Part shown: one piece after another, positions 3,113 through 7,347 of the stretch
Position numbering within the stretch: the stretch's first letter is position 1
Layout of the letters: every line of letters begins with the position of its first letter
Origin: Novosphingobium nitrogenifigens DSM 19370
Lineage (GTDB): Bacteria > Pseudomonadota > Alphaproteobacteria > Sphingomonadales > Sphingomonadaceae
Reading direction: 5' to 3'
NCBI RefSeq assembly: GCF_000192575.1
Contig: NZ_GL876926.1
Span: 186,001 to 250,000 of the forward strand
DNA: 64,000 bases
Notes under the pieces: model-generated
Databases searched by the model: none
What the model was told of the DNA's origin: nothing
What the model saw: the letters and a program-made list of their open reading frames with translations, nothing else
Translations under genes and position numbers: made by a program

Positions 3113-3895
3113 CTAGATCAGGCCCTTGGCCTTGAGCGAGACGTGCCCTTCGCGCCCGATGATGACATGGTCGTGGACCACGATGTTGAGGTGGCGTCCG
3201 GCCTCGATCACTTTCTGCGTGACCTGAATGTCGGCGCGGCTCGGTTGGGGGGAACCCGAGGGGTGGTTGTGGACGAGGATCAGGGAGGCCGCTCCGATCG
3301 CCATGGCCTTGCCGATGATTTCGCGCGTGTAGATCGCGGATTCATCGAGTGTGCCGTCGCTGACCACCTGATCGAGCAGCAGACGGTTCTGCACATTGAG
3401 ATAGAGCACGCGCACGCGTTCGTGCGTCAGGTGCGCCATGTCGATGTGCAGATAATCGATCAGCGCCTGCCAGCTTGAGAGAATGGGTTCCTCGCGCACG
3501 GTTGCCAGCGCGAGGCGGCGAGCGGCCACGCCGACGATTTTCAAGGACGCGGCGGCGGTTTCCTTGATCCCGGAAATCCCCGTCAGGGCTCGTGGGTCGG
3601 CGTTGAATACTCCCGCCAACGATCCGAATCGCTGCATCAGCACGCGTGCGAGCGGCTTGACGTCCTTTTGTGGGATCGCCGTCATCAACAGGTATTCGAC
3701 GATTTCGTGATCGGCGAGCGCGTCGTCGCCTCCTTCGAGCAGGCGTTGCCGCAAGCGGCCGCGATGACCCGACGGATCGTTCCCGGTCTCGCGCACGCGA
3801 TTGGCATCGGTCTTTTTTTTCGTGCCGCGTCCCTTGCGAGAGGGAACTTCGCTTGATGAAGATTGTTCAGCAAACAGATGGGGTTCTTCGTTCAT
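3113..3895 (-). CDS. radC: RadC/UPF0758 family JAMM-domain protein
   Basis: A 260-residue protein from the ATG at 3895 (MNEEPHLF). The N-terminal part carries the helix-hairpin-helix-like segment around GHRGRLRQRLL and LTGISGIKE; the C-terminal half is the JAMM metallo-fold with the zinc motif HNHPSGSPQPSRAD. RadC proteins have a putative deubiquitinase-like fold; their cellular role is unproven, and the old repair assignment came from a mis-mapped mutation. The open frame extends back to 4018 through a 20-bp tandem repeat array, but that extension is repeat-encoded and lacks the conserved N-terminus, so the shorter start is preferred. Convergent with the TonB receptor gene. Confidence 0.88.
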   Translation of the reverse strand: MNEEPHLFAEQSSSSEVPSRKGRGTKKKTDANRVRETGNDPSGHRGRLRQRLLEGGDDALADHEIVEYLLMTAIPQKDVKPLARVLMQRFGSLAGVFNADPRALTGISGIKETAAASLKIVGVAARRLALATVREEPILSSWQALIDYLHIDMAHLTHERVRVLYLNVQNRLLLDQVVSDGTLDESAIYTREIIGKAMAIGAASLILVHNHPSGSPQPSRADIQVTQKVIEAGRHLNIVVHDHVIIGREGHVSLKAKGLI

Positions 3896-3900
3896 TGCAT

Positions 3901-4000
3901 TCCTTGGTGTTGCGCGAGGCTCCATGGTGTTGCGCAAGGCCCCATGGTGCTGCGCAAGGCCCCATGGTGCTGCGCAAGGCCCCATGGTGCTGCGCAAGGC
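3901..4000. repeat. Five-copy 20-bp tandem repeat between radC and ydbH
   Basis: Five head-to-tail 20-bp units fill 3901-4000 exactly. The last three are identical (CCCATGGTGCTGCGCAAGGC); the second differs at two positions and the first at four. Units 2-5 contain the palindrome CCATGG, and every unit has TGCGC followed by A or G. The array starts 5 bp upstream of the radC start codon and ends 54 bp before the ydbH start, so it occupies the whole divergent regulatory region. Because 20 is not a multiple of 3, successive units shift frame. Confidence 0.97.
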
Positions 4001-4053
4001 AAAGTGCCGTTCCTGCATTGCCTAAGCCGGATCGCTGCGCAAGAAGGGGGACA

Positions 4054-7000
4054 ATGGCGGACAGTTCCGATTTGGCGGAGGCCGAACCCGAGGCCGAGAC
4101 GAAAACGCGCACTTCGCGCCGTCGCACGGTTGTGCGCGCCGCGCTCGCAAGTGCGGGAATCCTGGCTGTCGCGCTGGGGACGGGCTGGGCCTTGCGCGAG
4201 CGAATCGCCGATAGCCTTATCGACCGCGAACTGGCCTCGCTCGGCCTTCCGGCCCGCTATCATGTCGAATCGATCGAACTGGGGCGTGAAGTCCTGTCGG
4301 GTATCTCGATCGGGGATCCCCGACACCCAGACCTCACCATCGAACGGGCGGAAGTCGCCTTGCGCTATGGGTTCTCCGGCCCCCGGATCGACCGGATCAC
4401 GCTGGTGCGGCCGCGTCTGTTCGGTGCCTTGCGCGACGGTCACCTGGGTTTCGGCTCGCTCGACCGGGTGATCTATGCGCCCTCGTCGGGGAAGCCCGCG
4501 ACTTTGCCCGACTGGTCGGTGACGCTCGTCGATGGGCGTGGCCGTATCGACAGCCCCTGGGGCCCGCTGGCGTTTTCTGCTGATGGGGCCGGTCGCTTGT
4601 CCGACGGCTTTTCGGGGACGCTCGGCGCGGTGGTTCCATCCGTCAATGCGGGACGCTGTACGCTTGCCCGCACCACGCTTTATGCCGCCGTCGCCGTCCA
4701 TGGCGGACACCCCCTTGTTCAAGGGCCGTTGCGATTCGGGGCAGGGCATTGCGGCGACACCACGTTCGCTGCGGGCAAAGTCGATTTCACGGCCAGCAGC
4801 GACCGCACGTTTTCCGACTGGTCCTTTGGCGGCAAACTCGGTGCGGGTCGGATTGCAAACGGGGACGCGTTCGCGCTTGCCGGGCTCGGTGGCGACATCG
4901 GCTTGCGCTGGAGCAAGGGCCGGAACGAGCTTGCCGGGCGCGTGACGCTTGCCGCGCGTGGAGTGGCCGCCCCTTCGTTCCGAATGGACAGTCTCCGCCT
5001 CGACGGGTTGGTTCATGCCCGCAACGGGTATTCCTCGCTCGATTTCCGGGGCGATCTCGACGGACGCGGGCTCGTGCATGGCGCCACAGTCGCCGCCGCC
5101 CTCGAAAAGGCGCGTCTCTCGACCGAAGGGACGCCGGTCGGACCGCTGGTCGCCCGGTTCGGCAGTGCCCTTGCCCTTGAGGAAAAAGGCAGTCGCCTGA
5201 CCGGCAGTGTGAGCGTCCGGCAGGATGCCGCCGGGTGGCGGGTGGTTGTGCCTTCGCTCGAACTGCGCGGCGGGCACAGCGGGCAGTCGCTCGCGGTCGT
5301 CTCGCGCCTCGCCGTCGATGGGCAGGACGGCCACATCCCGCACATGGTCGGCAATTTCATGACCGGTGGGCAGGACTTGCCGCGAATCACCGGGACGATG
5401 GCCTCGGGTTCGCTGGCGTCGGGCAAGGACGGCGGCGCGCGGTTCCGGCTGACCATGGCCGATTATGCAGCAGGCGGGGCCCGTCTCGCGCTGCCCGGCC
5501 TTTCGGTGGCGCAGGCGGGCGACGGATCGCTGGGCTTTGCCGGTACGGTCGCCATGAGCGGGCCGATTTCTGGCGGACGAGTCGAAAATCTGGTCCTTCC
5601 GGTCGAAGGGGGGCTGGATGGCGACGGCCATCTCGCCTTGCTCCGCCGCTGCGTCATGCCCCGCTTCGACCGCATGCAGGTCGGAACGCTCGATTTGGGC
5701 CGCTCGACGATCACCTTGTGTCCGACGAATGGGGCAGTGGTGCGGGCCGGGGGCGGGGCCGCGCCGACGATTGCCGCGACGCTGCCCCGGCTCGATCTTG
5801 CCGGACGCAACGGCGGGGCGCCGTTCGAACTTCATGCGGGGGCAGGGCGAATCGCCTGGCCTGGCACCAGCACGCTTGCTGGTCTCGATCTCGCACTGGG
5901 ACGTGGAGAGGATGCCAATCGCCTGCGTCTTGGCACTTTGACTGCGACGAGCGCGGGGCAGGGCGGCGGTTTCGAAGGCAGTTTCGCCGGGGCCGACGCG
6001 CGTCTTGCCGTGGTGCCGATGACGATGAGTGAAATGGCCGGTGGCTGGCATTTTGCGGACGGCAAGCTGGCCCTCTCGTCTGTCGCTTTCAAGCTGTCCG
6101 ACCGGCAGTCCCCGGCGCGATATGCCCCGCTTGCCGGGCGCGATGGCTCGCTCATGCTTGCCGACGGGGCGGTTCATGCCGATGCGCATCTGATCGCGCC
6201 GAAAAACGGCGCGGAAGTCGGGCGGGTGGTCTTGCGCCACGATCTCGCCTCGGCTGTCGGCCATGCCGATTTCACGGTGCCGGGGCTGACCTTCGTCGAC
6301 GGGGGCAAGGACGCCAAGGGGCCGACCTTGCAGCCCAGCGACCTCAGCGACATGGCCAAGGGCGTGATCGCCAATGCGGACGGTACGATCAAGGGCAATG
6401 GCCGGATCGACTGGACAGCCAAGGGCGTCACCGCCACCGGCGCGTTCGGCAGCGACGATCTCGATTTCGCGGCGGCATTCGGTCCGGTGAAGGGGCTGTC
6501 GGGCACGATGGTGTTCACCGATCTGGTCCATCTCGTGACCGCGCCCCATCAGGTGTTCAAGGTGGCGAGCGTCAATCCGGGTATCGAGGTCGATAACGGC
6601 ACCGTCGACCTGCAATTGCTCGCGGGGCAGGTCGTACGGCTCAACGGGGCGCAATGGCCGTTCGAGGGCGGCACTCTGAAACTCGAGCCGGTCGATCTCA
6701 ACATGGCCGTCGCCGAACCGCGTCACTACAATCTGGTGATCACCGCGCTCGACGCCGGCCGGTTTCTTCAGCACATGAACATGTCGAACATTTCGGCGAC
6801 GGGCACGTTCGACGGACGCCTGCCGCTGGTTTTCGACGCCAACGGGGGCCGGATCACCGGTGGCACGCTCGTCTCGCGGCCCCCGGGCGGCAATGTTTCG
6901 TATGTGGGGGCTTTAACGTACAAGGATCTGACGACGATGGCGAATTATGCGTTCCGCATGCTTCGCTCGATCGATTATACAGCCATGAACATCGGGATGC

Positions 7001-7347
7001 AGGGCGACCTCTCGGGCGAGGTCGTCACGCGCGTCTCGTTCAGCGGCGTCAAGCAGGGGGCAAAGGCGGAGCGCAATTTCCTGACGCGCCAGCTTGGCGC
7101 CCTGCCGATCCGTTTCGACGTCAATATCCGCGCCCAGTTCTATCAGCTCATCAATTCGCTGCGCTCGCTCTATGACCCGACCATGGTGCGCGATCCGCGT
7201 GAACTGGGGCTGGTCGATCAGACGGGCCACGTCATTCAACGCCGGGCGGCGGCATCGACCCGCCCGGTCCAGCCGGCTTCGCTTTCCCGGACGACAACCT
7301 CCGATGAAGGCGCCATTCAGACCCAAGCAAGCGGAACCATGCCATGA
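4054..7347 (+). CDS. ydbH: YdbH-family AsmA-like intermembrane lipid transport protein
   Basis: A 1097-residue protein starting at the ATG at 4054, 3 nt after an AAGGGGG ribosome site. After an Arg-rich cytoplasmic tail (SRRRTVVRAA) there is one membrane anchor near residues 27-45, then a long periplasmic repeat-like beta-rich region ending with the YdbH C-terminal domain. In E. coli YdbH, with TamB and YhdP, forms bridge-like structures that move phospholipids to the outer membrane. The identification is strengthened by the next two genes, which encode YnbE and YdbL homologues, the same trio as in E. coli. It is longer than E. coli YdbH (about 880 residues). Confidence 0.85.
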   Translation: MADSSDLAEAEPEAETKTRTSRRRTVVRAALASAGILAVALGTGWALRERIADSLIDRELASLGLPARYHVESIELGREVLSGISIGDPRHPDLTIERAEVALRYGFSGPRIDRITLVRPRLFGALRDGHLGFGSLDRVIYAPSSGKPATLPDWSVTLVDGRGRIDSPWGPLAFSADGAGRLSDGFSGTLGAVVPSVNAGRCTLARTTLYAAVAVHGGHPLVQGPLRFGAGHCGDTTFAAGKVDFTASSDRTFSDWSFGGKLGAGRIANGDAFALAGLGGDIGLRWSKGRNELAGRVTLAARGVAAPSFRMDSLRLDGLVHARNGYSSLDFRGDLDGRGLVHGATVAAALEKARLSTEGTPVGPLVARFGSALALEEKGSRLTGSVSVRQDAAGWRVVVPSLELRGGHSGQSLAVVSRLAVDGQDGHIPHMVGNFMTGGQDLPRITGTMASGSLASGKDGGARFRLTMADYAAGGARLALPGLSVAQAGDGSLGFAGTVAMSGPISGGRVENLVLPVEGGLDGDGHLALLRRCVMPRFDRMQVGTLDLGRSTITLCPTNGAVVRAGGGAAPTIAATLPRLDLAGRNGGAPFELHAGAGRIAWPGTSTLAGLDLALGRGEDANRLRLGTLTATSAGQGGGFEGSFAGADARLAVVPMTMSEMAGGWHFADGKLALSSVAFKLSDRQSPARYAPLAGRDGSLMLADGAVHADAHLIAPKNGAEVGRVVLRHDLASAVGHADFTVPGLTFVDGGKDAKGPTLQPSDLSDMAKGVIANADGTIKGNGRIDWTAKGVTATGAFGSDDLDFAAAFGPVKGLSGTMVFTDLVHLVTAPHQVFKVASVNPGIEVDNGTVDLQLLAGQVVRLNGAQWPFEGGTLKLEPVDLNMAVAEPRHYNLVITALDAGRFLQHMNMSNISATGTFDGRLPLVFDANGGRITGGTLVSRPPGGNVSYVGALTYKDLTTMANYAFRMLRSIDYTAMNIGMQGDLSGEVVTRVSFSGVKQGAKAERNFLTRQLGALPIRFDVNIRAQFYQLINSLRSLYDPTMVRDPRELGLVDQTGHVIQRRAAASTRPVQPASLSRTTTSDEGAIQTQASGTMP

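Follow-up and report, generated by a model that had tools for sequence, protein, structure and literature searches.

The 20-bp tandem array between the divergently oriented radC and ydbH genes of Novosphingobium nitrogenifigens DSM 19370 is best explained as a recent minisatellite. Very probably it is specific to this lineage, arose by slippage, and is near-neutral or, at the most, modulates radC mildly. The array was analysed in a window of 64,000 nucleotides (contig NZ_GL876926.1, positions 186,001 to 250,000 of the forward strand), which is numbered from its first letter and holds the following features at this locus:

3113 to 3895, minus strand: radC, a JAB-domain RadC protein (UPF0758; Pfam PF04002, E 4e-40), with the start assigned by homology
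3901 to 3905, minus strand: AAGGA, a putative Shine-Dalgarno-like motif read from the sequence, its last base perhaps at 3900
3901 to 4000, no strand: the 20-bp tandem array of five units, consensus CCCATGGTGCTGCGCAAGGC
4018 to 4043, plus strand: promoter-like element TTGCCY-N13/14-GCGCAAG upstream of ydbH, identified by conservation in relatives
4054 to 7347, plus strand: ydbH, an AsmA-like intermembrane phospholipid transport protein (Pfam PF11739, E 2.5e-119), with the start assigned by homology

The five units start at 3901, 3921, 3941, 3961 and 3981. Unit 1 reads TCCTTGGTGTTGCGCGAGGC and unit 2 reads TCCATGGTGTTGCGCAAGGC, with four and two mismatches to the consensus, respectively, and units 3 to 5 are identical to it, each reading CCCATGGTGCTGCGCAAGGC; units 1 and 2 both have a T at positions 1 and 10. 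Tandem Repeats Finder reports the array at 3905-4000 (period 20, 4.8 copies, 96% matches, score 164), and matches to the unit with at most three mismatches number 4 in the window versus 0 in 100 dinucleotide shuffles. The original prediction, made from the sequence, of five head-to-tail 20-bp units at 3901-4000 is borne out by this output and by unit alignment, and direct reading of the units confirms the CCATGG that it placed in units 2 to 5. The array had also been said to fill the divergent region; it does lie there, but it ends 17 bp before the promoter-like element. With head-to-tail units of constant length, present above chance, the array is of the bacterial minisatellite kind (units of ~10-60 bp). 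Its divergence gradient (4, 2, 0, 0, 0) is typical of stepwise expansion towards ydbH. We infer that a stretch of ~20 bp of the fast-evolving radC-ydbH spacer was tandemly duplicated via replication slippage or unequal exchange, with the copies on the ydbH side amplified most recently; selection may alternatively have caused the identity of the three last units.

The array occupies one locus in one lineage and is not dispersed, as is the case for minisatellites. A search for further arrays of the unit, proposed with the original prediction, found no second one in the 4.18-Mb genome, where the only match outside the array is a chance-like unit site with three mismatches. A dispersed repeat family was rejected on the lack of another genome site and on an exact search of the genome-contig collection with the two-unit pattern, which gave no hit. 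None of the 195 Novosphingobium congeners searched has the array; scattered members carry single-copy matches to the unit at two mismatches, never arrayed. Across the 397 other family genomes sampled, the two-unit pattern with at most three mismatches gave no match. Neither recurrence of the unit at other regulated sites nor a site kept in relatives, as a dispersed operator or iteron would have, was found.

A survey of short-period arrays covering 2.37 Mb of the 4.18-Mb genome returned this array as the strongest with a period not divisible by three, which makes it unusual for this genome and counts against reading it as an ordinary minisatellite. The genome also has shorter arrays of this type at other sites, among them 14 bp x 3.9 and 16 bp x 3.5. 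Independent repeats were found in the variable N-terminal coding part of radC in relatives, one of 15 bp x 3.7 at locus L038, from the sister species G098, and one of 18 bp x 3 at locus L084; both units are divisible by three. These repeats fit slippage filtered by reading frame, under which a 20-bp unit would be tolerated at the array site because that site is non-coding. Outside the window, a period-145 tandem array of 2.6 copies is present at G000:C2:850845-851214, with a unit that resembles a repeated tRNA gene.

Both gene starts and the promoter-like element lie outside the array. The RadC N-terminus encoded from the start codon at 3895 (MNEEPHLFAEQ...) is common to relatives, and the ydbH start at 4054 is backed by a conserved N-terminus and a Shine-Dalgarno-like stretch, AAGAAGGGGG. 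The AAGGA motif, ~5 nt before the radC ATG, is supplied by unit 1 at its diverged outer end, so the edge of the array may contribute to radC translation. YdbH, TamB and YhdP are AsmA-family proteins linked in E. coli to inter-membrane phospholipid transport (PMC8593681, PMC8912898).

The element TTGCCY-N13/14-GCGCAAG is highly conserved before the ydbH start across Novosphingobium and relatives, and of 80 distinct radC loci 73 match a slightly looser pattern. The match may be chance in a few loci, such as L024, L051, L052 and L054, in which no ydbH was found beside radC. With only 3 matches in the whole 4.18-Mb genome, recurrence of the element at the radC/ydbH site is not chance, and a general promoter is ruled out; the element is probably a promoter or regulator site specific to its gene and, by its position, likely the ydbH promoter or its regulatory site. 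A sigma-70 consensus scan of positions 3700-4300 gave no match, a blank that is uninformative because the -7 T is missing from most N. aromaticivorans promoters (PMC8407463).

In a RadC tree of the comparison set, which has one genome per species, N. nitrogenifigens (G000) is sister to five species (G185, G098, G189, G190 and G099; support 100/96). The element was found in four of these five, with spacers of 12, 13, 13 and 14 bp between it and the radC start, and neither element nor array was seen in the fifth (G190). The same spacer is 122 bp in N. nitrogenifigens versus 12-86 bp (median 50.5) in the 28 other loci with a radC match beginning at residue 1. The short spacers of the sister clade suggest that the radC promoter probably overlaps the element on the opposite strand, which would place the array in the radC leader and upstream of the ydbH promoter. 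Expansion of the array would have shifted the radC start from the 12-86 bp of relatives to 122 bp from the shared element, and the array would then probably stand within the radC 5' leader or promoter-proximal spacer, outside the ydbH transcript. The radC leader RNA is predicted to fold no more stably than shuffles (z -0.65), on which RNA structure in the leader was rejected, and the single-stranded DNA fold is likewise no better than shuffles (z -0.70).

The original prediction gave the array a possible role in leader translation, gene N-termini or promoter spacing through its start codons. The positions and frames that it listed are all correct on recheck: the plus-strand ATGs lie at 3924, 3944, 3964 and 3984, with only 3964 in frame with ydbH, and on the minus strand the ATGs at 3985 and 3925 share the radC frame, as does a third at 4018, outside the array. 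The functional reading of these codons is not supported, since homologues put the radC and ydbH starts outside the array and sister species are without it; the array ATGs are for the same reasons dispensable for both genes. An array-coded RadC N-terminal extension from 4018 or 3985 and a YdbH extension from 3964 were both rejected, for although the frames are open, homologues start at 3895 and 4054, respectively, and the sister species are unable to encode such extensions. The rotating start codons are an arithmetic by-product of a 20-bp unit holding CCATGG. As the promoter-like element stands between the array and ydbH, the ydbH transcript probably begins downstream of plus-strand ATGs such as that at 3964, which would leave them out of the mRNA. 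On the minus strand, it is plausible that the radC leader includes the array, and the array may have a weak effect on radC.

That the array is a contingency or phase-variation locus, in which copy changes in the radC leader shift upstream ATG frames or spacing and so alter expression of radC (or ydbH), is unlikely. A unit not divisible by 3, the radC-frame ATGs at 3985 and 3925, a probable location in the radC leader, and promoter tandem repeats elsewhere that vary in copy and change expression, such as that of M. tuberculosis lpdA (PMC12817950), speak for it. However, neither gene start nor frame depends on the repeat, the flanking genes are housekeeping-type rather than surface antigens, relatives manage without the array, and radC has its own conserved start and Shine-Dalgarno-like sequence beyond the last unit, so the upstream ATGs need not serve it. 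A copy-number rheostat or switch, in which gain or loss of units shifts ATG frame and promoter distance so that cells within a single strain are tuned differently for radC and perhaps also for ydbH, is quite improbable.

A multi-site operator, also raised with the original prediction, would make each unit a regulator site (core TGCGCAAG) or have it echo the ydbH promoter element, with sites about two helical turns apart. One weak hint favours it: the 10-mer GCTGCGCAAG recurs in units 3-5 and in the conserved block of the ydbH promoter, and an equally good match to the unit is seen in only ~2.4% of random 70-bp segments of the genome, in a comparison made after the fact. The word is, however, common, with 37 copies in 1.2 Mb, a 4-5-fold over-representation in the genome. 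There is no second array or cluster of the unit genome-wide, and no relative keeps the sites. An operator is highly improbable, and derivation of the unit from the ydbH promoter block was set aside as weak and post hoc. Repeat miscounts are possible in short-read assemblies, and the array copy number might be such an artefact. The array is, however, shorter at 100 bp than usual read lengths and sits inside a 1.48-Mb contig, and units 1 and 2 each have their own variants, which leaves an assembly artefact the most remote of these alternatives.

A literature search found no publication that deals with intergenic tandem repeats of Novosphingobium. As a minisatellite, the array resembles other bacterial intergenic minisatellites and VNTRs in its short, near-identical, head-to-tail, lineage-specific units and in being diverged at the older end and homogeneous at the recent one; copy-number variation between strains is the usual hallmark of VNTR loci, whereas this array is known from one genome. 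Like the promoter repeats of M. tuberculosis (dop, lpdA and cysG), it sits in a promoter or leader region immediately before genes, but its unit is 20 bp versus ~55-60 bp at lpdA and cysG, and the M. tuberculosis repeats have proven copy variation and, at lpdA, a measured effect on expression (PMC12817950). Real effects of promoter repeats are thus known, so the array may have a modulating role, though nothing found at this locus supports one. With slipped-strand contingency loci, whose units are of a few bp, the array shares a unit length that is no multiple of three, close to start codons; it differs in being 20 bp in unit, non-coding, beside housekeeping-type genes and without evidence of switching. 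The array illustrates how striking frame patterns arise from simple repeat arithmetic, and it is a possible strain-typing marker. If variable and functional, it would represent repeat-driven expression tuning in a free-living sphingomonad, at a divergent promoter by an envelope lipid-transport gene.
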